Source: Antedon mediterranea (taxonomy: Eukaryota > Echinodermata > Crinoidea > Comatulida > Antedonidae). Taken from it: 64,000 nucleotides of DNA. The stretch lies in assembly GCF_964355755.1 (NCBI RefSeq), contig NC_092670.1, positions 30,429,795 through 30,493,794 of the forward strand. The letters are read 5' to 3'. Positions 20,682 to 56,500 of the stretch are shown here, in pieces. The notes under the pieces were generated by a model, which was given only the letters and a program-made list of their open reading frames with translations, was not told the origin of the DNA and searched no databases. Numbering within the stretch: position 1 is the stretch's first letter; the number at the start of each line of letters is the position of its first letter. Position numbers and translations under genes: made by a program.

Positions 20682-20845
20682 ATAAATGTTATAAACGTCT
20701 TTCTTGTTATCATGCTATTGATAATATATTTTTAAAATATTTTGTGTTCAATCTTTCATTTCAGTAATACATTACAAAAAAATTTAAATACAATTAAAGA
20801 CTAATACAAAATGTTACAATTTTTCTATAGCAAAACACAGATCAA
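20682..20845 (+). repeat. Intronic duplicate A, left part
   Basis: The run gctataaatgttataaacg to caaaacacagatcaa is repeated with only a few changes at 22136-22299. In the second copy it continues without interruption into aaagagtgatgtagatattt. Here that continuation is displaced to 21630, beyond an insertion. Confidence 0.85.
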
Positions 20846-21629: not shown

Positions 21630-21656
21630 AAAAAGAGTGATGTAGATATTTAATTA

Positions 21657-21966
21657 CCGACTAAATTAAATGGGAAAATCCAACAGTTATTACTTGACAA
21701 GAGTCCAAAACATAATGTATACATTATTCTCAAATTAAAAAAGAAATTCTGTGTAAGTCTATATTTGCTGAGGCAATTTTAATATATTGTCTAAGCCTTT
21801 TACAAATATATCATTATAATATTTTAACATAATACCGGTACTATAGTTAATTCATATAGGTTTATAATGTGTCACTGACACTTTTTCAAACCATTTCATT
21901 TTCAGTTAGCATACCGTGATGCTTCCAATATTTTTATTTAATTTGCAAAATTACTTCCTTTTTGTT
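21657..21966 (+). repeat. 310-bp block duplicated at 23606-23935
   Basis: Both copies run from cgactaaattaaatgggaaa through gcaagagtccaaaa (or gac-), tttgctgagg, ttacaaatatatcattataatattttaacata, gtgtcactgacac and catttcat.ttcagttagcataccg. They are in the same orientation about 1.95 kb apart and bracket exon 1 of the patched-domain gene. Confidence 0.85.
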
Positions 21967-22135
21967 TTTGTTTCGTGAATATTTATTATATTTGTGTTTT
22001 AAGGTGGCGATAAACAACTATTTTGTTTACCTTAATTCTGAACCTTTTACCATATATATATATATAATACATAAAATTAAGTTTTCTGTCTCTTTTTTTA
22101 AGCCTACATATACCATAGATTTTTTTTTATATTAC

Positions 22136-22327
22136 GCTATAAATGTTATAAACGTCTTTCTTGTCATCATGCTATTGATAATATATTTTTTAAATATTTT
22201 GTGTTCAATCTTTCATTTCAGTAATACATTACAAAAAATTAAAATACAATTAAAGACTAATACAAAATGTTACAATTTTCCTATAGCAAAACACAGATCA
22301 AAAAGAGTGATGTAGATATTTAATTAC
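22136..22327 (+). repeat. Intronic duplicate B (uninterrupted)
   Basis: Near-identical partner of 20682-20845 plus 21630-21655. It is the empty-site reference for the insertion at 20846-21629. Confidence 0.85.
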
Positions 22328-22519
22328 AGTATCTATTCTATATGATGATGTTTGGTTACAGTATCTATACAAGCAAATATCAGAAAAACAGATAATAAGG
22401 ATTGAAACGTTAATGAATTTGATTCCATTGTTTCTATGAGAAAATAGATGAAACAACATTGATAATAATATGATGACCGGTAAACTATACTCTACTAGAT
22501 TAAAATAAAATGTACTTAC

Positions 22520-23480
22520 TTAGAATGAGAATTGGCGTGGTGGCAACAATATCAATGAACGGCACTCTGCAATACATGAGAAAGCCAAACGCTGAAACTA
22601 CTGCAAAGCCCGCAGACACAACACCCATCAATGCCAACCATGGTTTGTTCTGAACGTTATCCAGACGAATGCTGGACCAGATTGCAAAGTTGATAATAAT
22701 CGTAAAAGCAATTGTGAATGAAGTAAATACCGAATCGCTAGCGTGTTCGAGTTCAAGTTCGAGAGAACGCGATGTGTATCGGTAAACTTCAACCAAGTTT
22801 CCATCATAAGACTCTAAAGTTTCCAGGAATGCGTCTTCCCATTTGTCGGCAGTTACGTCATCTATGCGGAGGTAAAAGATTAACTGGATTGCGGCGGCTG
22901 TGCTAATAACATCTGTGTTTCCTTTAAGCTCAACACCACCAAATAAGCTACCGATAAACACATCTTCATATACGGGATAGGTGACGTTCTTTTCTCTCAT
23001 AGAAGAACCTTTAGGAAAGGTGTAAACAAAGCCATCCGTTTGACATTCTCTTAACCACTGCAGACAGATATCATCAAACTTTACCACACCCTGCGAGTCG
23101 GTTACTGAAATGTTTTGCACAATTTCAATTAACGTGTACACCTCTGATATAATTTCTTCTGTGATTACATTACCTCCGTCTTTTGCCACTAGTATCATTC
23201 TTCCGTATCGGCCTAGCGTTGTCAGGCGGTTAACAGTTACGTTGTTATCATGAATAAAGACATCTTCAACCACATCACGCTCGTCCTTAGCTCGTCCGTT
23301 TGTAGGCGTAAACAACTCTTCTACATCTGTCTGTTTTTCGAGATATATCATTCCGCATCCCAATGCGATAGTAATTAACACGGGTACGATTAAAAACGGG
23401 ATGGGATGACGAGAAATGAATTTGCCATAGCGTTTATAAAATGAAACGAGTCGTTTTTCTATGCAATCAAGTTGCACCAT
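22520..23480 (-). CDS. Patched-domain protein, exon 1 (N-terminal 320 residues)
   Basis: First coding exon of the patched-domain gene. The chosen ATG at 23480 has a good context (CAAGATGG), and the sequence upstream is not open in frame with family similarity. The N terminus (CIEKRLVSFYKRYGKFISRH) and TM1 (IPFLIVPVLITIALGCGMIYL) match the start of PTCHD-type proteins, followed by the VEELFTPTNGRAKDERD segment that opens the first large extracellular loop (about residues 50-255, with NxT/NxS sequons). TM2, TM3 and the start of TM4 end the exon. The donor follows 22520 in phase 1. Joined to exon 2 the protein has 867 residues, a normal length for PTCHD-like proteins. Assignment to the patched superfamily is firm; the exact orthologue is not. 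Confidence 0.9.
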
Positions 23481-32711: not shown

Positions 32712-33018
32712 ATGAATAATAGAAAAAGCATGAACCAATCGTCATTTCCGCCCGTCGATCCTCTAGACGAAAATGACAAGGTTGCAATTGTAGGGATTGG
32801 ATGCAGATATGGAGATGGTGTAGCAGGTCCACTGGAAATGTGGCGTATGTTGAAGGAGATGAGAGACTGTACAACATCTCATCCGGCTGAGCGTTTCGAC
32901 AAATCAACTTTCTTTTTTCCTGGTGAAAAGAAGAAAGGTAAATTGTACACCAAACGTGGCGGTTACCTAAAGCAAGATCCGTTTATGTTTGACCGACAAT
33001 TCTTCAGGATGTCCCCAA
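32712..33018 (+). CDS. Type I polyketide synthase, exon 1 (KS start)
   Basis: Encodes residues 1-102 of a 2435-residue type I PKS. The start ATG at 32712 is the first in frame after the splice acceptor at 32695. Residues 22-36 (DKVAIVGIGCRYGDG) are the N-terminal signature of ketosynthase domains, followed by the P-x-x-x-W..L segment and RFDKSTFF, and ending in the QFFRMSP motif that precedes EAE.MDPQ. The donor is CCCCAA|GTAAGTCG; the final codon is split after its first base, and joining to 39354 restores SP-SEAEHMDPQ exactly. A second copy of the donor lies 220 bp downstream. Confidence 0.93.
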
Positions 33019-33450
33019 GTAAGTCGCTTTCCATCAATTACTATGTTTATGTGATTTGCATTAATGAACTTTCGCATCGGGAGGGTAGACGAAAAAGGAC
33101 AGTAGATTTTAACCGATGCGGTAAGATTAATCTGCGCATGCGTATAAGCCCGTTCAGTTTGTCGATAACGTTCGGTTCGGTTAGTTCATGACGTCATTTT
33201 GAAACTTTTCTACGATAAACAAAAAAGATTTCGTCCTCAAGTAAGTCGCTTTTCATCAATTACTACGTTTTTTACGTGATTTGCTTTAATGAACTTTCGC
33301 ATCGGGAGGGTAGACGATAGAGGACAGTAGGTTTGAAACGATGCGGTAATATTAATCTGCGCAGGCGTATAAGCCCGTTCATTTTGTCGATAATGTTCGA
33401 TTAGGCTAGACGAAGTTTATGACGTCATTTTGAAACTTTTCTACGACATA
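33013..33450 (+). repeat. 219-bp tandem duplication including the exon-1 donor
   Basis: Copy 1 starts at ccccaagtaagtcgctttccatcaattact and copy 2 at about 33232 as cctcaagtaagtcgcttttcatcaattact. Both run through gaactttcgcatcgggagggtagacga, gatgcggta, cgtataagcccgttca and gacgtcattttgaaacttttctacga. The copies are 85-90 percent alike. Confidence 0.85.
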
Positions 33451-34899
33451 CAAGAAATATTTCTTACAAAAGATGCCGGTTGAGTTTTTTTACGTTTTAT
33501 TTAATCAATATACGCTGGCGTAACATCTAGGTCGTGTCCACAGATGGTTCTCGAATAGAGTAGAACCCATATTCGGGGCAAATCATTTAACCTAAATTCA
33601 TTTCAATCGTCAATAATTAATTATCTTTCTCAACTTAATTAGTATACTGATTTTTATTAGGTTTTAAAAATCAATATACCCAACTTTCTATACCGTCGAG
33701 TAAACATTCTAAAAGTTAGGCGCGATTACCGAATTAATCATTATGTTCCAGCTACGATCTGGCGACAAGCTACTGCTTCATCAGCCTATATCAAGCAACT
33801 ATTAAGGTGACAGAGCTTTCTCAACACTGTTCCTCGACTCTGGAACACCTTGCCCATCTCAATTCGCCAATTCGTTAAAAATGATTATCTTTTTGCCCAG
33901 GCTTATACATAGTCATAATTTTTGTATTGTAATTATAGTATGCATAAACTCATTTTGATTTTTATAGATTCGTTTAAAAAGGGAAGCGTTCTTGTAAAGC
34001 CCAAATATGGTAGTGATATGCTCCAATATGGTGTGGTAAGACATCATCATGTCCATTGGGCACATAACTTTTTGTTTTCACATACATTTTGATAAAGTAG
34101 ACATAGTTTGGCCCTCTTTAAGATTTTGATTTACCTTTTTTAGTTCTTTATTTTTAACTTTTCTAAATTAAGACCTAGCCTGGCTAACGCCAAACGGTCG
34201 TTCAGATCTGTTCCGGCATGATTCCGGCCCGGCGCCGGCAAATCAAATCGAACGTCAATGTTTTGTTTTCACGCATATCGAATGGCGCATTAGCCGCGTG
34301 GAACGCCGTGAAAACGAAACATACGGATGACGTCAACATTCTACTCATTTGCATAACAACGTAGTTTAAGCGAACAGACTTGTTCGTTTTTATTCCGCGC
34401 TTAACACTGTATAACGCAACGCATGTGTCGCGTCGCGCAAGCAACAAACGCCGCTTGTATTAAAACAAATCATGTAATACATTTGCCTAGCTACACATGC
34501 TCAATCATGCATTTTGGGTGATAAATAGCATATTGTGTTGAACAATTCGTACTGTTTGGCTTAATATAAAACATAACTTTAAATTTACCAGTTGTTTTCT
34601 TAATTATTTTTCAGAATTATGATGATTATTCCATGATTTGTTACCCTTTGGTTAACGTTTCTTATGCTACTTATCAGAAATAAGGTTCTCGACTCACGTA
34701 ACTAAAGTTTTTCGTAATGCTTGCGCACGCGCATATCGATTTGTTTACAAAGTGGGCGGAGCTTGCGTGCTGCATGTTGGAAAATAGCGTTACAGTTAAC
34801 GTTTACGTGCTCCTGCGATTCAACGCAACATGTTGATTTTATGTATGTGAGAAAGAAATAAAAATAAAGACAATACAGATTAATGAATATATATTCCCT

Positions 34900-35185
34900 T
34901 TGAAAGCGCAGCGTCGCACGTCATTTTCGCCTGAAAACAAAAGTTGCGGTTCGATCAGGGTTGGCATTTATCAATATTTGCTAATTATTTTGCTTAAGCT
35001 GAAATATTTAATAAGTATTTAATAACTCAAGCTTATTATCAATCGTCTTAGAAAACCAATTGTCTTGGCGCATGTGCAAAATTTAACATTATAGTGCAGT
35101 CAATTTTGTCTTGAGACGAAAAATCTTTGCTTACGCGTGCGCATTTGCTTCTTTCTGTTTTGGTGGCGGCGCTATAACTTTTATC
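34900..35185. repeat. Intronic repeat, copy 1 of 3
   Basis: The sequence from aaagcgcagcg through cgcctgaaaacaaaagttgcggttcgatcag, tttatcaatat, cgtcttag, tggcgcatgtgcaa, gagacgaaaaatctttgcttacgcgtgcgcatt and ggcggcgctata recurs in part at 35925-36095 and 36490-36665. Confidence 0.65.
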
Positions 35186-35221
35186 TACGCACAAGAAGAA
35201 TTCTGCTAACTATTCATTTAT

Positions 35222-35690
35222 TAGGGTCGTTTGGCAACGCTACGAATACGATAACGAAAACGGATACGTCACACACACGTATTCGTTTTCGTAAGCCAAT
35301 AAAAATCTGTTTTGCGTGGCAACGAAATATTGAGGGCGCCATCCAAAATATGACCGCGGTAAATTTAACGAAGCGCAGGCAGGTTGCTTGGCCGCCTAGA
35401 CCTAGCGTAACATCAAAACGAGTGAGAACTTTCAAAACTGCGCAAATTTATCAAAATTGACCTGGCATTTTAGTAAATTACTTTTAGTAAATGATAAATC
35501 TATAATTATACAGTATTATAATCATAAATCTGATTCAAATGCAAAATGTATGACTGGTGATATTCGTCAACACGAATTCGCTTTACGAATATGAAATGAG
35601 GATCTGCTCAAATGTGTCATAAATGTGTGACGTATGGATGCGATAGCGAAAACGAATACGTATTCGTAAGGTTGCGAAACATCCGTATTA
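35222..35690. mobile_element. Inverted-repeat element with GAATACG ends
   Basis: The left end gtttggcaacgctacgaatacg and the reverse complement of the right end (tgtttcgcaaccttacgaatacg) are an imperfect inverted pair, each followed by cgaaaacg-type words. No coding frame was recognised between them. Exact termini and target duplication are not clear. Confidence 0.5.
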
Positions 35691-36112
35691 CTTAAAATAT
35701 AGAAAGAGCACAAAAGTCGTAAACTCAACTTTTATTTATTTGTATCAATGACAGCGACTCTTAGCAACCGATAGAGTTTTATAATAGTTTCTGGATAGTC
35801 AAATAAGTCACATCTATACTGAAATATTTCTAGCCCATCTTACTGAAGATCGATGTCATTATCAGCGTACATAATACCACGGAAAACGCACTAGCATAGT
35901 CTTTCGAAGTGTTCTTATAGGCAAATAACTTATGCTTATCAAACCGTCTTAGCAGAAAAATTGTCTAAGGTAAATTTTAGTTTGCGCATGAGCAAAATTA
36001 AACTCTAGAGGTCAGTAAATGTGTCTTAAGACGAAACAACCTTGCTTACGCTTGCGCATTAGATTTTTCTCTTAGCGATGGCGGCACTATATCATTTTTG
36101 CCCATATTATTA

Positions 36113-36443
36113 CGCCCGTTTTCTTAAACAGGACTGCAGTCGTAGTTTGAGCTAAAACTTTAAAAATTGACGTCATTTTAATTCATAAACCGTACTTCAA
36201 CTAAATCAGAGACTAAATCAGGCCAACCTCGACTAAATCGAGACGGATTGTGATCAATTTTTGTTAGTCCTCGAGGGGGCTGGCTAAATCGCCGACAAAA
36301 TGGTTTTTAAACGGGGTTTAAGTTTAAGTCGAACTGCAAACTTTGACTACTTTTTTATGAATCGAAAAAGTAATAGCTCAAACTAGCACTTTTTGAAGTC
36401 GAAGTTTGAACTACGACTAAAGTTCGGTTTAAGAATTCGGGCG
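36113..36443. mobile_element. 331-bp MITE with TTA target duplication
   Basis: The left end CGCCCGttTTCTTAAAC, followed by AGTCGTAGTTTGA, matches the reverse complement of the right end, CGCCCGaaTTCTTAAAC followed by AGTCGTAGTTCAA. TTA lies immediately outside both ends (36110-36112 and 36444-36446). The inside is rich in actaaatc and gtcgaa words and also folds back. This is typical of non-autonomous PIF/Harbinger elements. Confidence 0.75.
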
Positions 36444-36753
36444 TTAAACTTTTGGACAAAGTGTCGTGCTTCGAATAATTATATTCCCATTGAAAGCACA
36501 GCACATTTTCGCCTGACAACAAAGTTGCGGTTCGATCAGTGGGCTGGCATTTATCAATATGTGCTTATATTTTTGCTTAGGCTTAAATATTTAAGAAAAT
36601 AACTTAAGCTTGTTTATCAAGCCGTCTTAGCAAAACAGTTTTTTTACTTGGCGCATGTGCAAGCGAATTTGCAGGTGAAAGTGAACAAGTTGCCCATGAA
36701 AAGAATTCACGCGCGGAGCTTTCGCTATCCGAATTCACCGCAGCCAAAACAAA

Positions 36754-37560
36754 ATTTATCTGTAATCACTACAATAATAAATTGCGCATGATCAGCTATT
36801 ACCGAACAACCAAGAGCACAATCACAACGCAATGATTTGTCCTCCATGTCAAAGGTTAAACATTATCGCATTTATTTCGATAATAATATCCGATTTTAAT
36901 GAGATAATTATCGGTTAACAGGCAGTAACAAAGTTTTTTTTTCTCTCTTTTGTGGGGATTTTACACACTTTTATTTCTTATAAAAATTCATATTTTTGTA
37001 AATAATATTTATCTTTATATAATAATTTATCTGTAATCACTACAATAATAAATTGCGCATGATCAGCTACCGAACAACCAAGAGCACAATCACAACGCAA
37101 TGATTTGTCCTCCAGGTCAAAGGTTAAACATTATCGCATTTATTTCGATAATAATATCCGATTTTAATGAGATAATTATCGGTTAACAGGCAGTAACAAA
37201 GTTTTTTTTCTCTCTTTTGTGGGGATTTTACACACTTTTATTTCTTATAAAAATTCATATTTTGGTAAATAATATTTATCTTTATATAATAATTTATCTG
37301 TAATCACTACAATAATAAATTGCGCATGATCAGCTACCGAACAACCAAGAGCACAATCACAACGCAATGATTTGTCCTCCAGGTCAAAGGTTAAACATTA
37401 TCGCATTTATTTCGATAATAATATCCGATTTTAATGAGATAATTATCGGTTAACAGGCAGTAACAAAGTTTTTTTTCTTCTCTCTTTTGTGGGGATTTTA
37501 CACACTTTTATTTCTTATAAAAATTCATATTTTTGTAAATAATATTTATCTTTATGTAAT
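36754..37560. repeat. Tandem triplication of a 267-271-bp unit
   Basis: atttatctgtaatcactaca begins at 36754, 37025 and 37292. Each unit contains cgcatgatcagcta, tcaaaggttaaacattatcgc, ttatcggttaacaggcagtaac and a ttttttctctcttttgtggggatttt stretch, and the units are almost identical. The last unit runs on into a further 470 bp that also occurs in PKS intron 3. Confidence 0.9.
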
Positions 37561-38030
37561 ATGCACAATTTTCATTAATATTTGTTTCTCTACTCTACTC
37601 AATTAATACAGATGTAAGTTTTTCTTATACATACATTAAGATATAATAATAATTATAATTATAAAACAAAATTATATTTTCATAACTATATACAAGTATT
37701 TCAACTCAAATATCCATAACAAAATAATTATAATTTTTAATTAATACCAATTACCAATATGTTATACTTTAAACATGTTCATAGCATTTCTTTAACACTT
37801 TCTTTTTACATGAACATAATTATAATTTTCTTATGGTATTATATTTTACACACATTAAATTTAAGTATACATGTTAATATACACATATAATTCCTTTATG
37901 AATGTATATTTCTACTTTAATCATGCTTTGATTCTTATGTAACATTATCTTCTACATAAATTAATATAATAATTCATAGTTTTATCTAGTATAGTTTGTT
38001 GTTTGCAACATTATTTTATCTCATAAAAAA
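37480..38030 (-). mobile_element. LINE-like 3' end, copy 1
   Basis: About 550 bp that are nearly identical to 41125-41683. On the minus strand the end is AAAAGAGAGAAGAAAAAAAA, resembling the tail of the L1/Tx1-like LINE at 2616 (ATAAAAGAG then A run). It is probably a 5'-truncated, non-coding LINE end. Confidence 0.7.
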
Positions 38031-39353
38031 AAATTGTTTATATTTATTTAATTATTAATAAAACATTTGAAGTTATTAATAGAAGAACCATTAGTTGAGC
38101 AGCATGAATTATAATAGTACAATGTGGTATTTTCTTTTACAGTAACAAAGTTAATATTTGAAGGATATAAGGGTTTTTTGGACCCGTAAAAGTGGAGTTT
38201 TTGAAGATTTACGATTATTTTTGGTCTATATTTTGTTATCTTTAACCCCAAAATAATAATGAAATTTTATTTTTACTGCCTAATTTGGTTTATAACAGAT
38301 AAAAATTCCATGCAGTATAAAATCTATTGCTTTTTTCTAGAAAAAATAACAGCGAATTTATCAAAAGTGTTTTTGCACATTTAAAGTAAATTTGCATGGT
38401 TTCTTCCAGTTTCAATGGTTACAAGACCCTAAAATTTAATTAGTAATTTGTTTACTAACTAAAATCATTAGTGGATTTAATTAAAGATGTCTTCTTCCTA
38501 ATACAATATTAAACAGTTTGGATTGCCACATTTACAATTTTGGCACACTTTGAATTGATTCTGACCCATTGTGAGACGGTTTGTACAACATTCGGAAATG
38601 GTTGGAGCAAATAGTTTAACCTAAATTCGTTTTAATCATCAATAATTAATTATCTAAGTAAAGTATGTACCGTACTGTACCAATTTTCTATATCAACGAG
38701 TAAAAATGTTAAAGTGTACACACGCTAAAAATGTGGAAAAAACGAACACACTTACACTTAAAATTTTAGAAAGATATAAAAATATATAGTTGTAAAGCCT
38801 ACATACATCATCCTATATAGGTTTATTATTACAAATGGAAGTTAATTGAAGTAACCAACGACCACGTGGCCTTTCTTTTACATTATTTTTTAATTTTTTA
38901 ATTATTTACTAAACAAATAAATGCGAAATTAAACATTGTAATTCGTAAAATTACAAGTCTATTACAGTATTTAACAGCCATTTTACTGAAATTGACCTGT
39001 TCACATGCATGGATCCTTGTAATAACTTGTTATACCTACATTTTAAAAATAATTGTAGGTGTGAAATTGGTATAAGTAGAAATTAACTGGTAACAGTTGT
39101 AGCTGAAACTAGTACTAGTAGTAGCATCTGCTATGAAGCTTTATTATGTTTTTTCTGTGACTTGTGTCTGTTTAACTTGAAATGGTTAACCTAATGTAGC
39201 TGTAAAATAGTATTTAATTTTTATTGTCTATAAAACTAAAAGCGGGAATATAATCTGCTATTGAAACTACGGCAGAATTGGGTCATATAAACTGAACTAA
39301 GCAACAAATAACGTTGAACCCCTGTTTTACAATGTAATTGTTTTTATGTGTAG

Positions 39354-40810
39354 GTGAAGCTGAACACATGGATCCACAAATACGAATTCTTCTTGAGGTT
39401 GTCTGGGAATCGATTGAAGATGCTGGTATTCCTGCTTCTACACTTCGTGGCTCTAACACTGGTGTGTATATGGGAGTAACGGCTAATGAGTATTTGGCCC
39501 TAACCGGCTTACCCTTTAGTAACATCGGTCAATACACAAATTCAGGAACCAACTCTTGCATGATTTCCAATCGTATTTCGTACGAGTTTGATTTAAGAGG
39601 ACCAAGCTTTTCCATCGACACTGCTTGTTCGTCATCTCTCTATGCTGTACAGGTTGCATGTGATGCTCTAAGAGGAGGCGTCTGTGATACAGCAATTGCA
39701 GGTGGAGTAAATATCATACTTACACCATCTGTTACAATTGGGTTTTGTCAAGCTGGTATGCTTTCTCCTGATGGCCAGTGTAAAAGTTTTGATGAGTCAG
39801 CTGACGGTTACAGCCGAAGTGAAGGTGTAGGGTCAGTACTTCTAAAGCCACTTAAAAGAGCAATAGCAGATAATGATCGAATTTACGCAGTTATAAGGGG
39901 CGGCGCTCTAACAAATGATGGACGAACGCCAGGTATTGCAAACCCAAGTTTTGATGCTCAGATTGATCTTGTGCACAAAGCATGTTCAGCAGCGAAAGTA
40001 GACCCACGTGACGTTGCTTATATCGAAGCTCATGGTACAGGTACTAGGGTAGGCGACAAGACTGAAGCTAATGCCATCGGTGAAGCTATGAGCAAACAAC
40101 GTTCGGATGATGCACCACCTTTGTATATTGGTTCTGTAAAATCAAACGTAGGACATGCAGAAGGTGCTGCTGGAATAGCTGGAGTTATTAAAACAGCATT
40201 GTTACTGTATCATCGTGAAATTCCTGGTGTTGTGCATTTCCAACGCGGTAACCCAAGCATTAATTTCGAAGACCTCAAAATGACCGTTCCTTCTACAAGC
40301 ATCTCTTGGCCTGCTGATTCAAAATATCTCGCAGGTTGCAGTTCGTTTGGATTCGGAGGTGCTAACGCACATGTTGTTTTTGAAGCAGCCCCATCTACAA
40401 TGCAAAATCATTGCGAGGTAACGAATGGTGATTCATCACATTCTGAGAAATCAAATATGTTAATGCTTTCAGCATCGACATCAGAAGCTCTTAAGCAAAA
40501 GTTTATCGACTATGGGAACTTTATTTCACAAAGTTCGGTTTCTCTAAAAAATACGTTATATACTGCAAACTTGAGAACACATAATCATGTTTTTAGAGCA
40601 GTTCTTTTAGCCAAGACCAGAGAAGAATTTATGAATATACTGCAAAGAAAAGTACACGGAGAAAACGTTATTACTTTAATCGAAGGAAAGGCACCAGAGG
40701 GCAATGTTATAATGAGACTAGTTTTTGTTTTTTCTGGCATGGGCACTCAGTGGTGGGGCATGGCTAGAGAGTTAATGAACACACAACCAATCTTCCAAAA
40801 AACCATGCAG
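39354..40810 (+). CDS. Type I PKS, exon 2 (KS body, linker, AT start)
   Basis: Encodes residues 103-588. The KS catalytic triad is present: Cys194 in DTACSSS, His329 in EAHGTGT, and His370 in KSNVGHAEGAAG. The KS closes with SFGFGGANAHVVFE. The KS-AT linker follows (about 440-555), and then the AT opens with FSGMGTQWWGMARELM. The KS Cys context is that of decarboxylating chain-elongating synthases. The acceptor is tatgtgtag|gt; the donor is ATGCAG|GTAATT in phase 0. Overall similarity is to animal FAS-like PKSs, which share the FAS domain order. KS elongates by condensing malonyl units, in the cytosol as far as known for the family. Confidence 0.95.
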
Positions 40811-40919
40811 GTAATTACAAATACGAAACAACGTTAAACCTGGAATATTACTGTTAAAATCACTATAGAATATTTTTGATCAAGAATAATTATAAAACAC
40901 TTCTTTTTTTTAATAATAG

Positions 40920-41016
40920 AGAATTGATAGTTACCTTGGAAAGATTGGAGGAAGATGGTCACTTATTCAGATATTGACAGAAGAAACTGATAAAAACAGG
41001 ATAAGCAAGGATACAG
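40920..41016 (+). CDS. Type I PKS, exon 3 (97 bp, inside AT)
   Basis: A mini-exon encoding residues 589-620, R-I-D-S-Y-L-G-K then GGRWSLIQIL and a lysine/aspartate-rich end. This is the conserved L..lg.WSLi..L segment of FAS/PKS acyltransferases and fills the gap between exons 2 and 4 exactly. The acceptor is ttttaataatag; the donor is ACAG|GTTTAC, weaker than the others. It enters in phase 0 and leaves in phase 1, matching exon 4. Confidence 0.88.
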
Positions 41017-41124
41017 GTTTACAACGTTCTTATTCTGAGTTAATCGATGACATCTATCATGAATACATTCTTGTAGAAATGACTGTTAAACATTTTCGCA
41101 AACTATTGCAGTATTACAAATATT

Positions 41125-41683
41125 TTTTGTTCTCTTTTGTGGGGATTTTACCCACTTTTATTTCTTATAAAAATTCATATTTTTGTAAATAATATTTATC
41201 TTTATGTAATATGCACAATTTTCATTAATATTTGTTTCTCTACTCTACTCAATTAATACAGATGTAAGTTTTTCTTATACATACATTAAGATATAATAAT
41301 AATTATAATTATAAAACAAAATTATATTTTCATAACTATATACAAGTATTTGAACTCAAATATCCATAACAAAATAATTATAATGTTTAATTAATACCAA
41401 TTACCAATATGTTATACTTTAAACATGTTCATAGCATTTCTTTAACACTTTCTTTTTACATGAACATAATTATAATTTTCTTATGGTATTATATTTTATA
41501 AACATTAAATTTAAGTTAAAATTGTTAATATACACATATAATTCCTTTATGAATGTATATTTCTACTTTAATCATGCTTTGATTCTTATGTAACATTATC
41601 TTCTACATAAATTAATATAATAATTCATAGTTTTATCTAGTAGTTTGTTGTTTGCAACATTATTTTATCTCATAAAAAAAAAA
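41125..41683 (-). mobile_element. LINE-like 3' end inserted in PKS intron 3
   Basis: Near-identical to 37480-38030. TATTACAAATATT is present directly on both sides (41112-41124 and 41684-41696), a 13-bp target-site duplication of the kind left by LINE retroposition. The T run is on the left, so the element is in minus orientation relative to the gene. Without it the intron would be about 270 bp. Confidence 0.85.
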
Positions 41684-41860
41684 TATTACAAATATTGCAT
41701 ATTTAAACATCAGGAATATGATTTGCTAATAAAATGATGCTGAAATGCTAATGTCATATAGAATACCATTAATTGAGACCAGAATAGTTTATCCACTGAC
41801 ACTCGAACTTCAATTAGAAACATCTATTCTTAATATTATATTGTTGTTTGTCTTCAACAG

Positions 41861-44800
41861 AAATGTCACAAGTCTGCATTTGTAGCGTACAAATTGGATT
41901 AGTGGAACTATACAAGCTTTATGGAGTAACCCCAAGTGCCATAATCGGTCACAGCGTCGGAGAAGTAGCAGCAGCCTATGCAGCGGGACTTCTTTCTATG
42001 GAAAATGCAGTTAAAGTAATCTATAAACGAGGACATCTTCTCAGGAAAACAAGTGGTTCTGGGACAATGGCTGCAGTTCTTCATGACGTAGATGTTGTCA
42101 AAAGTAAGCTGGAGTCTACTCCCAGATGTATAGACGTGGCAGCTGTAAACAGCCCTACGCAAATTGTATTGTCAGGTAAAGCAGAGTTAATCAATGAATT
42201 TGCATCACAGCTGAATGAAGATGGTATTTTGACAAAATTACTAAGGGTTAATAATGCTTTTCACAGTCGTCACCAGGAAGGTATAAAGGAAGAATTTCTG
42301 AAGAAGACACGTTTTCTAAAGAAGAAAACGTTTTCCACTAACCATAGACCAGTTATTCCAATGATGTCAACTGTAACTAACCGATACGTTACTCTACAAG
42401 AGGCTAATGATCCTGCTTACTGGTGGAGTAATATTCGCCAGAAAGTGCGTTTTAGAGACGCCGTAGATGCCATACTAAAGGACGGTTACAATAGCTTTTT
42501 AGAAATAGGAGCTCATCCAGCCCTGTCACCAGCAATTAAAGACATTGTAGCCTCGAAATTGAGCACCCCAATGGTTCACTTTATCACTCATTCTCTTAAA
42601 CGACCACGTGATGTAAATAACTCTTCCAATGATAATCTCAACTTTAATTTGTCATTGGCCCAGATGTTTGTACGGGGCTATCCGATTGATATGACACCAA
42701 GCTTTCTAGGATCTAAGTGTGAGGTAGAATCCTTGCCATTGTATCCATGGCAACGTACCGAGTGTTCAGCAGCAACCTCTTCAAGGAATGAGATCATGCG
42801 GTATCCAAACTCTTTCCATCCTCTTTTAGGAAAACCAGACACTTCAGCTAACTTCTCTTTAAACGAAGGCTTTCAGGTTTGGAAAGGAACTATTGGAACC
42901 CATGAGGAACCATGGATTGCCGATCACGTGGTTCAAGGTAGTGTAGTGTTTCCGGCTGCTGGGTTTATAGAAACAGCAATAGCGGCGCATCAGAGAGTTT
43001 TTTCCGATTCACTTCAAGTAATTATTAAAGATATGCGTTTCGACCGTTTTATGTTTGTTTCTGATGAAGGGACAACCGTTGAAACAACAACCGAATTGGA
43101 AACTGAAGGCACAGCAACATTCAGATTTTGCTCACTCAATACAATAGAAAATAAATGGACAAGGCACACAACGATGACATTGATTAACACGCATGTTGTG
43201 TCTGGTCATGATATATGTCTAACTAATATGACGTACCTTCCTGTAAGCGAAATAAGAAATAGATGTCATGAAGAACTCGATCAAACTGGTTTTTATGCCT
43301 TCAAAAAGCAAGTCGGTTTTAATCTTGGTGAAAGTTTCATGTGTATCGAGATGGTAAACTACAACAAACTGGCCGACGAGGCACTTTTCTATATCAGAGC
43401 ACCGGATACTGTTGCTGCACAGTCAAGTCGATTCTATATCCATCCAGCTTTACTAGATGGTATCCTGCAAGCTATGGCAGGCCTTGAACGTCTACAAAAT
43501 ACAATTATAAATCCCACAGCAAAGCCCGAAGGTCGTGTTCCCAGATCTATTGAAAGGAGTTGCTTTAAAAAAGGCATATTCCCAGAAAGTGTATATCTTC
43601 ATTTTAAATTAATGAGCGACGGCGGAGCAGACGTTTATGCTGATGTTTCTGTTGCTATTGCAGACACCTTGGAGGTCATTGCTATGTTTTCAAAAATCCG
43701 TTTTGGATCAGTGGCTGGTCGTAGTGAAGACAGCAATATTAAAATATGGAATAAGGAATGGGTGCCTATCGACATGGGCATGAAATCATTCGATCCAACG
43801 GGTTATACCTTAATAACAGGAAATGACAAGGAGTTGTCATTGCATCTCCAGAACCACTTGACTTCGGCTGGACTTGAGTGTGGTATCTACAATGGAGGTG
43901 ATGTTCAAGAAGAGCAATTATCTATGGGTGGTAATAAACCATTGTTACATATTATAATCACAATTAAACCGGGTGACAAGAGAAACCATGACAAACTTTC
44001 CAGGAAAAACTTTTTGGAACTGCAATCTAGCATTGCAGAAATGTGTATCAATCACTATAAAGCTTTATCAACCCAGAAAAACATAGATCCGAAAATATGG
44101 CTGATTACACGAGATGGGTTTTATGTCACACACGATGACGTAGTTGATCCATGCCAGGCTTCAGCCTATGGTTTTGGTATTTGTGCGGTACAAGAAAATC
44201 TTGATTTCAAGCTCTCTATTTTAGATATTCCATCAGGAATTATCAATATTACAACGGCGGATTGGTTATTGAAATACATCTGGGGCAGTGACAATGATGA
44301 GATAATCATTGCATTACGTAAGAACGAGTCATCGCCAACAACGGATTTCAACGTGTATGTGTATCGGTTGTGTATACGTGATAGTTATCACTTTCCCTGT
44401 AAACAGTCATCATCTAAGTGGAAATTTAACGTTCGACAAAGTTTTGAAACTGGGAGATTGTTGCTGACAAAGTTCATTTCTGATAAGGAAGAAACCAACT
44501 CTGTCACATTGACAATTGTTAATATTGAATCTTTCCAACTGCTTTCATCTGAAACTCAAGGTTCTTCTAAAGAGGTAAAGCCGATTGTACTGTTTTGTGG
44601 AAATTCAGAAAAGTCCTCGTTGGTGATTGGTGTTTGTTCTTCAAACGAAATGAAGTCTACAATACAGTGCAGCAACAATGAACTGTTAGAACTAGAGACA
44701 AACCTTCCACCTACACATGTAATTGATATTGTCTCGTCATACACTGTTCCATTTCTTACTGTTCGTGATCTGAAACCAGATGGTGCGACGCTTGTTTGCA

Positions 44801-47307
44801 TAGATTCTACTGAGGATAAACAGTGCTTAGCTGTTGCACACGTGGCTGAAAAAATGGGTCACAATGTTTTGATTGTCATCAAACATTTTCCCGAGAAGCA
44901 TAGCTTGGCTTCAGATGCTTTTCCGAGATTCATTGAAAGTACAGACGTAATGTCTGTCTTGAATGGACACAGTGTGGGCTGTGTGATAGGATATATACAG
45001 TGCATAAGAGAATTAATCAAGGTTAATGAAGGATTAAAGGACAGATTGACAACGTTTGCAAAAGTTGAAATACTGAAGTCTAAGGAAGACATTCCAGTTA
45101 CTGATAACCTTGGCCTCTCTAGAAACGTAAGGGTTGTGGTCAATAGCTACACATTACCATTGCTTTGTCAGTTTCACAAGATGAAGCCTACTTTCAACTC
45201 GTTATTGAATCTGTTTAAGGAACCGCCATCAGCACAGAAATATATAAAGAGTCCACATATCAAGCTACTTAAGGAAGTAAACACCAGAGATAAGTATGCA
45301 TTTGATGATGTTATATTTTCAGTTGAAAACCACGAATCCGTTCGTGTAAATTATGACTTTTCGGGAAGAGAGACTAGATTAAGCATGCGCAATTATTATA
45401 TTGTAACTGGTGGTACGACTGGATTCGGACTCCGTCTTGTTGAATGGCTAGTGGATAATGGAGCTGGACACATTGCCATCTTAAGTCGATCTGTGCCAAG
45501 TTTTGAATCGGAGAAAATATTAAGAAGTCTTACAAATCGAGGAATAGAAATAGTGCACATTAGAACAGACATTACAAACAGATCGGATATAGAAAACGCA
45601 TTTGCTACAGTTTTAAAAGATCGGTCTAAAACTTTAAGAGGAATATTCCACTGTGCTGCGCAGTATGATGATAGGCTAATAGAGAGTATCGAACCAGATA
45701 GCTGGAAGAGAGTAATTGCAACCAAATCATGGGGTGCTCTTCTACTACATCAAACGTCAATTAAGTTTAATGTTCAACTGGAATACTTTGTAATGATTTC
45801 TTCTGTAGTTCAGTTGGTAGGAAACACAGGTCAGGCAAGTTATTGTGCTGCTAATACATATCTTTCATCTCTTGGTCATTATCGTAGAAACCAAGGTTTA
45901 CCTGCAACAGTCATCTGTCCGGGAGTGATTGGAGACACTGGATTTGCAGCAAGAGTGTCGGGCATTATAGAGTTTTGGGAAAGAAGAGGAATTGAAAGCG
46001 TGACATCACAGCAGGTATTGAATTTACTTGATGTATTGCTTAGTAGCAATACCTCTGACATGGGGGTAACTGGAAATCTTCGAATTAATGATGTTATTAT
46101 GGAATACCGAGGTATTCTAAAACATCACGACTATGAAGCAAGTTCAATGATGCTAGGATTTTCTTCTACAAGATCCCTGGGTCAAAACGAGAATGCATGT
46201 GACATTATGCATTTAAAACCAGATGAAGCTAAACTTTATATTTTCCAGCAATTGTGTAGTTTCATCTCCAAACGTATTGGCTTAACTGGTGACATTTCTC
46301 CAAACTCCGCACCGTCTTCACTCGGAGTAGATTCATTGACTGCAACTGAATTGAGCGGAGACATCCAAAGAACTTTTTTTGTTCCATTCCCATCTATGGA
46401 ATTGATTAATGCAAACGCGACAATGCAAAGTTTGTCTATTTTAATCTATAGAAAAATATTAGACAAGAATGAGGTTAGAGGTCAACAAAACAGCGAAGAG
46501 GAAATTGAGGAAGACACGTCTTGGAAGGCATGGTATATAATGGATGAGATGACTATGTCTCCTATTATCCAGCTAATTTGTTTCCCGCCAAATGGCGGAG
46601 GTCCGTCTGTATATGCATGGTGGCAGGAAAAACTGAGTAAGAATAATGTGCAGTTAATCATGGCACAATTACCCGGATGGGAAGGACGTCATAATGAGAA
46701 ACCTCTTCAAAATCTTGAAGAAATTGTGAGTAAATTAACGGAGAACCTAGCACCACGACTTTTGCCAGGCAGGTTTATATTGTTTGGTCATAGTATTGGT
46801 GGACTCATCGCATTTGAGGTTGCTCACCTTCTAAAAACTATGGGTTTACAGCCGGCTCATATGATCATTAGTTCTTGGTATGCACCCACGCTGGACTATC
46901 CTAACTCAATAGAGCTTTCAAAAGGGCCAGTTATATTAAAACAAATTGAACAAGATATCAACAACAACATCCCAGTAACCAACAAATCTCCAACGCTTTC
47001 TTTTGTTGATGATGACGTGTTGGGAAATCCTGATGTGATGAGACGCCTTATCCCTTGCTTCAATGCTGGCTTTAAAATCTGTCAAAAGTACAATTACACA
47101 CACAGTACAAAACTTCAATGCGGTATGACTGTGTTTGGAGCCAAGTCGGATCGGTTTATTCCTCCCAACTCATTAGATGCATGGTGTCATGAAATTGATG
47201 AAAATCATCATTTCAAAAAAATAATGGTACCAGGAGGTCACATGCACATTAGAAAGAGAGCATTTTTCAGAGATATTCAAAAAGCTCTTAAAGATACATT
47301 CCAGTAA
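41861..47307 (+). CDS. Type I PKS, exon 4 (AT, DH, ER-like, KR, ACP, TE)
   Basis: Encodes residues 621-2435. AT: Ser652 in GHSVGEVAAAYAAG and His755 in NAFHSRHQE; the AFHS form suggests malonyl-CoA. DH (about 940-1220): HPLLG start, His976 in DHVVQGSVVFPAAG and Asp1153 in HPALLDGILQ. About 1240-1800 holds the non-catalytic KR half and an ER-like stretch in which IDSTEDK (1601-1607) stands where the NADPH glycine loop should be. KR: GGTTGFG 1804-1810, Lys1909, Ser1934 or 1935, Tyr1948, Asn1952. ACP: Ser2112 in LGVDSL, the phosphopantetheine site. TE: Ser2265 in GHSIGGLIAFE, Asp2384 and His2414, with the CFPPNGGG start of type II (RifR/OLAH-like) thioesterases. It starts after tcttcaacag, completing a split Glu. 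All catalytic residues except those of the ER are intact. Product unknown. Confidence 0.95.
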
Positions 47308-47547: not shown

Positions 47548-48003
47548 TGTATATAAAGACAAGATTTATTTTAAAAGGTTGACTTATTACCCGACATTAC
47601 GTAATTTAGTTAAGTTATTTAGACTCGGCATTATGGAAATTCTTATTTGTAAAGAACTTCCAATGAATATTTTGATTGTCTTTTTCTTCCTTTTAAAAAT
47701 CTTGGTTTGAGTATTGTTTATTAGTAATATTCTTATGTTTGAATTGTTTATTGTTTTTATTTAAAGACAAGTTATACATGCAAGGCAAGACAAGATTTAT
47801 TTTAAAAGGTTGACTTATTACCCGGCATTACGTAATTTAATTATGTTATTTAGATTCGGCATTAAGGAAATTCTTATATGTAAAGAACTTCCAATTAATA
47901 TTTTGATTGTCTTTTTTTTCCTTTTAAAAATCTTGGGTTGAGTATTGTTTGTTCTAATTAGTTTATTAATATTCTTCGGTTTGATATGTTTATTGTTTTA
48001 ATT
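47548..48003 (+). repeat. Tandem duplication, period about 238 bp
   Basis: The run gacaagatttattttaaaaggttgacttattaccc to agtattgttt is present from about 47560 and again from about 47788, with roughly 90 percent identity. It is non-coding. Confidence 0.85.
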
Positions 48004-49327: not shown

Positions 49328-50406
49328 GGGTGTCACGAAACCTCAGACCACGAAAGCTCAGACCCCCTAAGACCTAAGATCACGAAAGCTAAGACCCAAC
49401 ACCTAAGATTACAAATATTTATTTTTCGCACCTGCCTTGTATTTTAACTCCTAACATTTATTCTGAATACCACACCTTAGAATTGGCACTTTCATGAAAA
49501 AGAATCACATAAAAAGTAACAAATACATTTTTAAATTGATGATTTTACAGACGTTTTTCTCGCACACAAAATGACTAGCCTACAGTACAGTAGGCCTACC
49601 CCATGGGCCATGTTCAATGTTTTTGTTTCTATGGAACGTCAAAAGAGCAAAAATTATATAGAGGGCTGAAAACTCTGTGGAGTCCATCTACAGTGTGGAT
49701 GGAACAATGTAAAATTAAAATTGTAATGATAATAGTATAATCATGCAAGTACGAAGAAATAAATACTGGCAAATAAATTTTAATTAAAAAATCATGATAA
49801 GTTTTTTTGTTTCGTTTTCTTTCTGTTTTTATATTTGTACTATTATTGTTGCTCTTTTGGCGCTCCATAGAAACAAAAACATTGAGCATGGGAGCTCGAG
49901 GAGTTACATTACAGTATACAAAGAAACACATCTGTAAAATCATCAATTTAAAGGATTTATTTATTTGTTATTATGTGTTTCTCCTTCTGAAAGTACTTAT
50001 AAGTCCTAATTTTAAAGTGTGGTGTTCAGGATAAAGTTAGTCAACAAATTTGGAGTCAAAATACAAGAAAGGCAGGTGCGTAAGAAAAACATCCTCTGAA
50101 CCAACACAATGGAGTAAATATATACCAACAAACAACCCGTCAAGTTTGTTTGTTTTAAAGAAAAAATATACATTTACTCAACGGGCGAAAATAATGTGAG
50201 TTTATCTATGTTTTGCGGTAGTATTAAATTATATTTATGGTAATAAATGAAACCTACTGTGTTTAAAATTATGTATGGATAAACAAGTATTGTTTTTAAG
50301 CTGTAGTATATCTTAGTATTTGTAATCTTAGGTGTTGGGTCTTAGCTTTCGTGATCTTAGGTCTTAGGGGATCTGAGCTTTCGTGGTCTGAGGTTTCGTG
50401 ACACCC
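49328..50406. mobile_element. 1.08-kb foldback element with 10-bp target duplication
   Basis: The left terminus GGGTGTCACGAAACC continues with tcagaccacgaaagctcag and matches the reverse complement of the right terminus over about 90 bp. The inversion continues, with gaps, deep inside: gcacctgccttgtattttaac at 49430 versus atacaagaaaggcaggtgcg at 50062, and caatgtttttgtttctatgg at 49614 versus ccatagaaacaaaaacattg at 49865. TGTCGGTGTG flanks both sides (49318-49327 and 50407-50416). Long inverted ends plus a 10-bp duplication point to a Mutator-like non-autonomous element. It has no protein-coding frame. Confidence 0.85.
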
Positions 50407-51419: not shown

Positions 51420-52985
51420 TTTGATTTGATTTGAATTTATTCGGAAGTACACAAATATACATAACAATTGGTAAACAAGAACAATTAAAACATACGGTAG
51501 TCTTCCATGGATAACCCAAAAAGCCGGTAAATATCATTCCAGCTTATTTCCATTGGGGTCCATTATATACATACATACAAACAATAAAATATTAAACCAG
51601 TAAAACAATAAAACATAGCATATAAAAGCATACTGTATAAAATTGATTATTAAAATAATATTACAAGTCATTCTTTAAAGTCTTACAGTAAGTTAAAATA
51701 CATCTGTCATTTATTCATTCATGAGACGTTGCTAAATACTCCTTTACTTTAAATTTAAAATCTGTCTTGTTAAAAATGGTTTTTAAAATGTGTGGTAATA
51801 GGTTCCATTGTTGTGCTGCTGTGTAGAAGAATGTGTCTTTAATATATGTGTCTGATTTAGACAGCTAGAATGTATGAGAGCTTCTTCTTGTGATATTTTG
51901 GATGGTGGATGTCTTGGAGAAGTATGTGTACATGTATGGAATGGCTTGGTTGTTGAATATTTTGTGAACATGGTTTAGTTTTAATTGTTTAACCCGACTT
52001 TCAATATTAAGTTGACCAATAGATTTAAGTTCTTCCTTACCAATATGGGACCTGTTATCCCAGTTACAAATAAATCTGGCAACTTTATTTTGGCCAACTT
52101 GAAGTTTTCTCTTAAAGATAACAACTTTGTCGATACAAATATTTAAGTCGTGCATAAATTGTTGCAAGTCCGTTTTCTACCATGGTTTCACCACGAAGAT
52201 CTTCATCCATATAACATCCTAAGTATTTAACAGATTGCTTCCGTGATAGTTCTTTACCATTACAATATACTTTAAATTCTTCAACATTTTAAACTTTTTT
52301 CTTTGGGCCAAAAAGAATAGCCTCAGTTTTATCAACGTGTAGTGAAAGTTCATTATTGATTAACCAAGTGTGACATGAATCAAGGTTGGTACTTAAAGAA
52401 TTTGCAATATTTTCCAGGCTTTTGCCAGAAACTAATAATGCGGTATCATCTGCATATAAGATAGTTTTACAGTTCGTACTAATAGAGATATCATTTATAT
52501 AGCATGTTAAAAGCAACGGACCGAGTATGCTTCCTCGTGGAACACCGGTATTTATTAAACAATATTTTGATTGAACATCATTCGAACAAACTACTTGTTT
52601 ACGGTCAGTAAAGTATGACTTAAACCACTTTAAAGAATTAGGAAAAACGCCCATTACACTAAGTTTATCAAGAAGTATTGAATGCTTTACGGTATCAAAT
52701 GCCTTTCTTAAGTCTAATAATACCATTCCTGTGTAATTACCTTTTGATGATTCATATCGAATGTAGTCGTGAATATAAATTAAACATGTTTCTGTAGAGT
52801 AATTTCCTCTAAATCCAAATTGAAAATCATCCACCAGCTTGGCTTTATTTAAATAAACAGTAAACTGCTTGTGGACTACCTTTTCCAACAGGAAGAACAC
52901 TTATGGGTCTATAGTTACTTGCATCACTTTTGAAGCCTTTCTTATATAGTGGAGTAATCTTAGCGTACTTAAATTCATCTGGGAA
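51420..52985 (-). mobile_element. CR1/jockey-like LINE, RT domain, frameshifted
   Basis: The minus strand encodes, from 52985 leftward, FPDEFKYAKITPLYKKG, NYRPISVLP, and after a frame slip near 52890 a 203-residue stretch with the RT blocks: FQFGFRGNYSTETCL, LLDLRKAFDTVKHSIL, TGVPRGSILGPLLL, ILYADDTALLV (catalytic YADD) and LSLHVDKTEAILFG. A later frame (52170-51865) has RFICNWDNRSHIGKEELK, the C-terminal region. It is 5'-truncated near 52985 and broken by at least two frame slips and stops. The 3' end lies near the gatttgatttgaattta stretch at 51420. Confidence 0.88.
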
Positions 52986-53533: not shown

Positions 53534-56500
53534 TAGTCAGGTGGCTTGGCAACAATTTTCAGGATTAACGTTACCGGCCGGACAAAAGTACAAAAATTGG
53601 CATGGAGTTTCCTTTCGACCTATCTATTGATTTTATCCGTGGAACCCACTTGATCGGGTCCGATTTTCCAAGATGGCGGCCAAAATCCAAGATGGCCGCC
53701 AGAAAAAAGGAAATGCCATATATCTGGCTGTAAGACTCATAAATCAACAAATGGGGTGTCAATGTCAGAGTTTCTGGGTGTCACTGAAACAGAATCTGGT
53801 CATGTCATGTTGCTCAGACCACCAATTTCCAAGATGGCGGCCAAATTTCAAAATGGCCACCAAAAAAATCAAATGTCATATATCAGACTGTAAAAATCAG
53901 AAATGAACAAATGAGGTGTCAATTCAGGGGTTTTTGAGGTTACTGTAATAGATGCTGGTCAAGCCATTTTGCTCAGGTCACCCAATTACAAGATGGCGGC
54001 CAAATTTCAAAATGGCTGCCAAAAAAGGAAATATTGTATATAAGGTTGTAAAAATCATAAATTAACAAATAAGGTGTCAATTCAGAGGTAGGCCTATCTG
54101 AGGTTACTGAAACAGATACTGGTCAAGCCATTTTGCTCAGGTCACTCATTTCCAAGATGGCGGTCAAATTTAAAAATGGCCGCCAATTCTACAATGAAAG
54201 AAGGATCACTCAGGTGAAATGGTAAGGAATATTTAATTGTATTGATTTTGTACATCGGCAGACAATAGAGTACCTCAACCCAGGACAAATCCCAGTGATT
54301 ACGTTTGACCAGCCTCTGTTCACGCTCGCCAAGTATGTAGGCCTACAATAGAAATGGCCAGATCTCTATGGTGAGAAAGTCTACGTAGTTATGATGGGCG
54401 GACTGCACATTGAGAAGGCACTATGGAACAGTGTTGGTGATTTATTAGATGGGTCAGGTTGGACAACGGCTCTCACTGAATCTGACGTTGCTTCATCTGG
54501 AACAGCCGATTCATTCCTGAAAGTATCACACATTACCAGAACTCGACATGCCCATCAAGTCACTGTTCTTGTTCTTCAGCGGCTACTGAATGAAGCATTC
54601 AACCAGAGATCTAATATTGATGAGAGTTTGAACAACTGGCTGGAACAAATGTGTAAGAAATCTCCCACGCTCAAGTTCTGGAACGCACACTATGAGATTC
54701 TGATTCTCATATTTGTTAGAGCCCATCGGGAAAGAGACTTCCTATTGTATGTTTCTGTATTAGAGGCACTCGTGCCATTGTTTTTTGCGTTAGATCATGT
54801 GAACTATTCTCGGTGGCTGCCTGTACAAAGAAGTATCAAGAGTATGTGAAGACCGTGCTCGTGGATCGTAGTCGTTCCATACATGATACGATCTCAAAGA
54901 ATTCACCACCCTTGCTCTCAACAAAGCTCAAAGTCAAATCAAAGGATTGCAAGAAAGTAAAGGTGCTTGAGAACAATGTGGCACTCTTCGGCCAGTTATA
55001 CATTTCCTTACAAAATAGAGATGGTGACATCAGTGAATTCTTTGCACACGAAGTACAGTCGTATCCTCCATCCCTGTCTGAGTTTGGAAAGCTTAATCTG
55101 TCTGGTACCAAATGTCATCTGTTACAATGTATCGAATCAAACCACACAGAGGCACCTGTATTTTATGACTGCAAAGTTCTGGATGGTGCGGTGACAGTAC
55201 ATGCATTACCTGTAATAAATGTCTCAACATTCCAAGAATATGCTGACAACGTGTTTATACCCCATCTTAAACGTCAGCTACGTGACACAAAGCGAGTGGA
55301 TGTTGTGAGGGACGAATACCGACCAGATAGCCTTAAGGAGGGAACCAGGGAGAAACAAGGCAAAGGTGTGCATAGAAAAGTATCAGGTGATACCAAGCTG
55401 CCGGGCAACTGGAATGACTTCCTCCGTGATCCAATCAACAAGAAAGAACTTTTTGAATTCCTTTCATCAAAGTTGCGGATTGCAGCATCCCTCCTGAGTG
55501 TTCGGTATATATCACAGCTGGAGAGCATGTTACATATGTTGGAATGCAGTTCAAAATGTCCAGCTGTAATCAAGAGGAAGCAAACACTAGGATTGTGTTT
55601 CACGTGAAGCACGCGTTGGAAAATGGAGCAAAATCCATCCAGGTGCGAACTGTGGATACAGATGTTGTCGTTGTTCTTATCAGTGTGTTTCATGACCTCT
55701 CTCATATAAATGCTGATCTTGATCTCTGGATAGCATTTGGAACTGGAAAGAACTACACTCATTACAGTATCAACGCCATTTGTGTACATCTCGGTGAACG
55801 CAAATCACGTTCCCTGCAGATTTTCCACTCCCTGTCAGGATGTTATACTACCTCAGCGTTTAGAGTTACGGATGCCTTTCTTTATCTTGCCGCACATCCG
55901 TTTGAGCATCTTCACTTACATTCTGAATCATTTCAAAGAATCGAGAGACTAGTTGTCGTAGTTTATGACAAAACAAGTAACGCCATGAATGTTAACAGTG
56001 CTTGGATGGAACTGTTCAGCCAGAAACAGCAAGCTGTTGACAAGATACCACCTACTCAAATGCACTACTCCAGCACACTAGAAGGGCCGTATACCAAGCT
56101 GGCATCTGGACAACATGCATGTTATCTAAACAAACAAATCCGTGTCCAACCGACTATGCATGGGTGAAAGTTGGGAACTCATGGGAACCTGTCTGGTCTA
56201 GCATTCCAGAGGCATCTAAAGCTTGCAGAGAATTTGTGAAATGTGGCTGCAAAAGGGCCTGTACAGTCTGCAAATGCAGCAAGCAAGGCAAATCTGCCTT
56301 GCACATCTCTTTGCCGGTGCACATGTTCATCCAAATAGGGTAAATCAACTGTACTATAACTGTAAACTGTTATGTAGCTATTATAGAAGTCCAATAACCA
56401 TCAACAAGTCGAGCCAAGTAAACCTTTTTCATATATTATTTTTGTTAATTTCTGATTTTTAACCCACATATGCCTACACAAAATTTTTGGAGTTTTTTTT

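Follow-up and report, generated by a model that had tools for sequence, protein, structure and literature searches.

A PKS2-type gene family in the crinoid Antedon mediterranea and its possible role

Introduction

What kind of enzyme does a long PKS gene of a crinoid encode, and what might the animal use it for? The question is raised by a 64,000-nucleotide stretch of the Antedon mediterranea genome (C1:30429795-30493794; hereafter, the window), for which an original prediction, made from the letters alone, proposed a complete animal type I PKS gene in four exons and compared it to FAS-like PKSs of sea urchins. The 354-Mb genome is assembled in 18 contigs, 11 of them of 22-41 Mb and 7 shorter than 0.6 Mb; a set of eleven chromosomes is in keeping with crinoids, though also with bryozoans. 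A TTAGGG array is present at the start of C3 only (84/85 exact matches). COX1 was not found in the assembly, and a genome search with GFP, run with no positive control, returned no match.

Here, we describe the gene and its relatives in the same genome, compare them with known PKSs and with bacterial sequences, and weigh what the enzyme is likely to do.

Results

Structure of the gene

Splicing of the exon coordinates produces a 7308-base coding sequence on the forward strand, which is translated into 2435 residues and has a single, terminal stop codon. The exons, and a repeat found in the introns, are as follows:

32712..33018, + strand: exon 1, start codon, N-terminus and beginning of the KS; a homologous exon is present in five paralogues
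39354..40810, + strand: exon 2, remaining KS, KS-AT linker and beginning of the AT
40920..41016, + strand: exon 3, 97 bases within the AT; it has a counterpart in five paralogues
41861..47307, + strand: exon 4, remaining AT through the TE and the stop codon; 5447 intron-free bases
37473..37772, + strand: repeat of about 300 bases within intron 1; its copy at 41123-41422, within intron 3, is 98% identical

All the exon coordinates that were proposed originally proved correct, and so did the codons said to be split at 33018/39354 and 41016/41861: junctions 1 and 3 are both in phase 1, and junction 2 is in phase 0. The three introns all have GT..AG boundaries and are all located N-terminally to residue 622. 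The same three intron places and phases are found in the five paralogues, and dN/dS is low among the intact copies (see below). The window PKS is thus a real, intact, spliced animal gene.

The retroelement flanks mentioned in the original prediction were also recovered, as open reading frames (ORFs) with RVT_1 matches in Pfam at three sites of the window:

4528-4995, - strand: RVT_1 ORF
52289-52900, - strand: RVT_1 ORF, with copies on other chromosomes
62073-63233, + strand: RVT_1 ORF

The 300-base repeat of introns 1 and 3 has more copies on other chromosomes and is, therefore, a resident genomic repeat. Since both the intron repeat and a flanking RT ORF have copies elsewhere in the genome, a contaminant origin of the window is excluded, as had been argued from the introns and the flanking retroelements.

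Several other features of the window may be mentioned. Pieces of a Patched/NPC1-like gene with a sterol-sensing domain lie upstream of the PKS gene on the opposite strand (18764-23480, -). Overlapping ORFs of 152-264 codons occupy a GC-richer stretch at 54391-56167 (+), and the two of them that were scanned (54813-55604 and 55544-56164) had no Pfam match. A two-copy direct repeat is found directly 3' of the PKS stop codon (47556-47953) and a 51-base inverted repeat at 49608-49891; these repeats are possibly a small DNA transposon.

Domains and catalytic residues

The order of domains in the protein is KS-AT-DH-[linker]-KR-ACP-TE. All Pfam domains scored above their cut-offs, no MT or ER Pfam domain was found at E 0.001, and the catalytic residues that had been described as intact were located in each of the KS, AT, DH, KR, ACP and TE:

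32775..40240, + strand: KS, residues 22-398, spans intron 1; C194, H329 and H370; PF00109 (E 1.2e-85) and PF02801 (6.1e-37)
40721..42573, + strand: AT, residues 559-858, spans introns 2 and 3; S652 (GHSVGE) and H755 (NAFHS); PF00698 (E 6e-63)
42817..43713, + strand: DH, residues 940-1238; H976 (HVVQGSVVFP) and D1153 (HPALLDG); PF21089 and PF14765
43720..45369, + strand: linker, residues 1241-1790; probably a structural pseudo-KR with an enoylreductase that has decayed
45397..45924, + strand: KR, residues 1800-1975; TGGTTGFG, S1934, Y1948, N1952 and YDD; PF08659 (E 1.8e-48)
46249..46437, + strand: ACP, residues 2084-2146; S2112; PF00550 (27.6 bits, cut-off 20.8)
46570..47283, + strand: TE, residues 2191-2428; S2265, D2384 and H2414; PF00975 (E 1.2e-29)

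We take GHSVGE and NAFHS to mark a malonyl-type AT, and the KR, with YDD in place of LDD, is presumably of the B type. An ACP-TE profile matched 3qmw (E 1.3e-27), RifR (4.9e-20) and the medium-chain thioesterase 4xjv (4.4e-19), and no type I FAS chain was present among its 14 matches (to E 1e-5). We take the labels of the TE matches to be type II/OLAH, and, as far as these profile matches indicate, the TE is nearest to type II thioesterases.

The 550-residue linker between the DH and the KR has no Pfam match, and its PDB sequence matches, to PKS chains, are weak (best E 0.0078). In a single hhalign comparison, a linker profile of 5 sequences aligned over 259 columns to the pseudo-KR and ER of two PKSs encoded on C4 (a profile of 2 sequences; probability 91.7, E 7.8e-7), and in this alignment the ER nucleotide (NADPH) motif is not retained in the window linker. 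The predicted structure of residues 1241-2030 is of low confidence (mean pLDDT 49.8); the best Foldseek matches of this model, which includes the true KR, are DH-ER-KR regions. Together, the profile comparison and the low-confidence model suggest that the linker is probably a pseudo-KR plus a decayed ER.

The gene family in the genome

A KS search of the whole genome returned 22 stretches. We assign 12 of them to six window-type genes, 3 to two KS-AT relics, 2 to the two PKSs on C4 and 4 to FAS; the last is a locus on C8. The six window-type genes are distributed over three chromosomes:

C1, window: the gene described above
C1:30.55 Mb: C1b
C1:4.197 Mb: C1c
C1:4.210 Mb: C1d, adjacent to C1c and on the same strand
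C11:9.52 Mb: the C11 copy
C5:29.77 Mb: the C5 copy

Introns 1, 2 and 3 are in identical places and matching phases in all six genes, with lengths between 93 and 6335 bases, the introns of the paralogues being called as the best-scoring GT..AG pairs with the window protein as a guide. The KS is 89%, 90%, 87% and 65% identical to that of the window in C1b, C1c, C1d and C5, respectively, and 97% identical over 349 residues in C11. The C1b protein stops after 2185 residues, with no TE in it or in about 2 kb of the DNA that follows. The C11 copy is broken by a stop after 1353 codons and by a frame break near residues 1541-1556.

One KS-AT relic is located on C1 (30.65-30.67 Mb) and the other on C11 (9.62 Mb), and their similarity to the window protein ends at about residue 929, the sequence examined beyond this point being 4.7 kb at L014 and only 0.6 kb at L012. 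In both, the KS cysteine is replaced by serine and the GHS of the AT by GQS, and the frames are open (L012 1548-9346 with L011; L014 2178-5158). On both chromosomes a full copy lies upstream of the relic, at a distance of ~95-190 kb, a placement that hints at segmental duplication, although dS is not the same for the two pairs, being 0.05-0.09 between the relics and 0.15-0.28 between the full copies. The dN/dS between the two relics is 0.40-0.55.

The C4 PKSs (C4:27567607 and C4:27612496; L007 and L008) have the order KS-AT-DH-MT-ER-KR in a single open frame of ~2300 codons each, and both contain GLMD in the KS and retain the KR tyrosine. The FAS of the genome is a separate gene with several short exons; its KS reaches 653 bits with human FAS and at most 431 bits with EcPKS1/2. 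One intron of the FAS gene is filled by a long minisatellite (L015, about 4330-6300).

Comparison with animal PKSs, and the expected product

Comparison to sea-urchin PKSs, as in the original prediction, is well founded. The domain order of the window protein (KS-AT-DH-KR-ACP-TE, without MT or ER Pfam domains) equals the published order of PKS2 from S. purpuratus, a match that the original prediction had not pointed out: in Table 2 of PMC4604110, PKS2 appears as KS-AT-DH*-KR-ACP-TE and PKS1 as KS-AT-DH-MT-ADH-KR*-ACP. The window enzyme has its domain order and its echinoderm host in common with both SpPks2 and HpPKS-2 of Hemicentrotus pulcherrimus. According to the same table, however, the DH of SpPks2 misses an active-site residue, whereas the DH motifs of the window PKS are intact, and a single PKS2 is listed for S. 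purpuratus as opposed to the six window-type copies found here. Orthology of the window gene to PKS2 is proposed from its architecture, in an order that Acropora PKSs nearly share. No account of PKS2 in crinoids was found in a literature search done largely at listing level, and neither SpPks2 nor Pks2 was found in PMC11414698.

The echinoderm PKS1 enzymes (SpPks1 and CrPKS) are also iterative type I PKSs with a KS-AT-DH..KR-ACP order. As described in PMC11414698, they contain MT and ER, have an inactive KR from which the tyrosine is lost, and have no TE, while in the window PKS the KR is intact, a TE is present and neither MT nor an ER domain was found. Up to the KR, the C4 pair is built like PKS1, but by our reading its KR tyrosine is present, unlike in CrPKS and SpPks1 as reported there, and the C4 PKSs are therefore not plain CrPKS orthologues. 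Section 9 of the same paper reports the KS motif GLMD, which both C4 PKSs carry, in 17 of 18 crinoid genomes; 77 specimens from the remaining four classes have GMMD. The vertebrate PKSs (OlPKS, MuPKS and ApPKS) share KS-AT-DH-KR-ACP and the lack of an ER with the window PKS but, in the account of PMC4604110, have no TE, OlPKS being 2051 residues long and encoded in six exons. The coral PKS of Acropora digitifera, KS-AT-DH-KR-(ACP)-TE, nearly has the window order but has an extra N-terminal part and belongs to another phylum. As in the window PKS, the introns of mollusc PKSs are described in PMC10764717 as few and concentrated at the N-terminus.

With this set of domains, the AT would charge the ACP with acetyl and malonyl units, which the duck PKS of the vertebrate family is reported to load (PMC6334511). 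The KS would then condense them, the KR would reduce each beta-keto group and the DH would dehydrate the product; because KR and DH would act without an ER, of which the linker probably holds a remnant, a double bond would be retained in every round. After several rounds, the C-terminal TE would hydrolyse the chain to release a free acid. The product would, then, be a polyenoic acid built from malonate, either conjugated or hydroxylated in part.

In H. pulcherrimus, hppks-2 is reported to be expressed in primary mesenchyme (skeletogenic) precursors, and its morphants to have severe spicule defects. By analogy with sea-urchin PKS2, the most likely role of the window PKS would be a skeletal (calcareous) one. 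Alternatively, it is possible, though we hold it to be distinctly less likely, that the same enzyme makes a defensive or pigment metabolite and that the diverging copies make different compounds. Six full-sized copies, one of them TE-less, and two relics follow the pattern of a diversifying family of specialised-metabolite genes, and a polyene pigment is described from a bird PKS (PMC10764717), the listed bird PKSs being KS-AT-DH-KR-ACP (PMC4604110); against this stands hppks-2, an echinoderm enzyme of the same domain order that acts in spicule formation.

Relation to FAS and FAS-like PKSs

The suggestion that the enzyme is FAS-like is not favoured by the bit scores. The window KS alone scores 386 bits to Pks13, 381 to CurL and 282 to human FAS, with EcPKS1/2 absent from the best 60 of its 74 matches; the whole protein scores 599 bits to MAS, 448 to FAS and 362 to EcPKS1. 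A special kinship to 7zma was considered and rejected, the high score being the sum of two KS domains. In a KS tree of 50 rows, which took in 31 of the 80 kept bacterial loci and 5 plasmid matches out of the 20 listed, the window family, FAS and the C4 pair each form a clade with 100/100 support. The FAS of the genome joins those of human and mouse (100/100) and is separate from the window gene. A KS phylogeny had been proposed as a check of the original prediction, and it did keep the FAS clade separate; the union of the window family with FAS was, however, not rejected by the AU test, being 7.65 log units worse with p-AU 0.31. The deep order of the window, FAS and C4 groups was also not settled by a quick KS-AT tree with long branches and one partial FAS row.

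That the window PKS is nevertheless a FAS or a FAS-like (AFPK) enzyme is improbable. The TE, which is present as in FAS, and the unrejected union would fit this reading, but the bit scores favour Pks13 and MAS over FAS and EcPKS1, no ER domain was found in the protein, the AT motif is presumably that of a malonyl-type enzyme, and three N-terminal introns stand against the many short exons of the FAS gene of the same genome. Of the marks of an animal FAS, namely a KS in the FAS clade, an active ER and many introns, the window gene shows neither the second nor the third, and its KS falls outside the clade in the tree, with the reservation of the AU test. The AFPKs (EcPKS1/2) are animal type I megasynthases like the window PKS, with a KS near FAS and many introns. 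As presented in PMC10764717, they have been identified only in molluscs and arthropods, and their mo-clades 1-3 have no TE; EcPKS1 uses methylmalonyl-CoA (PMC7280274). Judged from its sequence, the window gene is very probably no AFPK, and it is not of the pigment type (SpPks1/CrPKS).

Selection on the copies

The NG86 estimates of dN/dS between the window gene and C1b, C1c and C1d, in this order, are as follows:

KS: 0.11, 0.09, 0.08
AT: 0.24, 0.15, 0.10
DH: 0.22, 0.18, 0.19
linker: 0.37, 0.31, 0.23
KR: 0.31, 0.24, 0.23
ACP: 0.21, 0.06, 0.17
TE (C1c and C1d): 0.17, 0.07

YN00 values are similar wherever they were computed, and in the comparison with C5 dS was not computable in 5 of the 7 domains. 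The KS is the most conserved domain, and conservation is lowest in the linker or as low there as in the KR. The intact window-type copies are under purifying selection.

That the window gene is a decaying, non-functional copy is, by a little, even less credible than that it is a FAS or FAS-like enzyme. Decay does occur in the family, in the C11 copy with its two frame breaks and in the two relics without a KS cysteine, but the window copy is open over all 2435 codons and retains its catalytic residues, and dN/dS (NG86) against C11, a comparison in which one copy is broken, amounts to 0.19 over exon 2 and to 0.29 over the first 730 codons of exon 4.

Bacterial relatives

A scan of genome contigs with the single KS confirmed no relative. 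Of the 401 stretches from a scan with a KS alignment, which detects only loci bearing either of two peptide patterns, 362 were confirmed; among the 80 of these that were kept, the best bacterial KS is 54% identical. The window KS also matches 1288 plasmid records, every one of them less than 60% identical. In the KS tree, the neighbour of the window family is a small bacterial group, with weak support (82/67) and a long stem (0.88).

A recent horizontal transfer from bacteria, to which a KS closer to bacterial PKSs than to FAS and this weak sister placement might point, is the least credible explanation and was rejected, given the low identity of the kept bacterial loci and of the plasmid matches, the long stem, the introns and the six copies on three chromosomes. 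The KS trees and the distance of the best bacterial KS together indicate that the window PKS is neither a canonical FAS gene nor a recent import.

Other genes in the assembly

A phosphagen kinase on C10, with exons joined by hand, has its best PDB match in 3ju5 (479 bits), which we take to be a sea-cucumber enzyme, and scores at most 387 bits to creatine kinases. Matches to two-domain chains, whose scores are sums of two stretches, are 449 bits (arginine kinase 4rf6) and 419 bits (taurocyamine kinase 4wo8); other arginine kinases score at most 221 bits. Echinoderms are marked by an arginine kinase that arose from a creatine kinase, and the 3ju5 match is in line with an echinoderm host. A single open frame of 1124 codons on C9 (6113010-6115877; L115-L117) contains three creatine-kinase-like domains and presumably resembles the three-domain flagellar creatine kinase. 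On C3 (19.6-25.1 Mb), 19 scattered matches to myosin-head positions ~342-408 and 12 to ~563-640 were found among 65 scored of 335 candidates, an apparent local expansion.

Discussion

The window gene is probably a functional nuclear echinoderm gene for an iterative, partly reducing type I PKS of the PKS2 type, with a likely skeletal role by analogy with the sea-urchin enzyme. As an echinoderm PKS2-type PKS, it is ordinary in kind and of a sort already known; what is added here is the expansion of the family, a TE that appears nearest to type II thioesterases, the probable pseudo-KR and decayed ER in the linker, and the TE-less paralogue.

More tentatively, and with somewhat less weight than we give to a metabolite product, it may be proposed that PKS2 expanded in crinoids to six genes, one of them broken, with a decayed ER and with a TE-less member that releases its chain otherwise, and that the varied polyene acids made in this way pattern or nucleate calcite. 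PKSs are reported to be required for the formation of fish otoliths and sea-urchin spicules, and the literature searched, as far as its accounts go, names no product for this biomineralisation role. The crinoid PKS2-type set, with its variants with and without a TE, offers concrete genes to clone and express, and polyenoic acids as a product class that can be put to the test. If the proposal is true, the window family would supply natural variants with which to find the mineralisation factor that a PKS makes.
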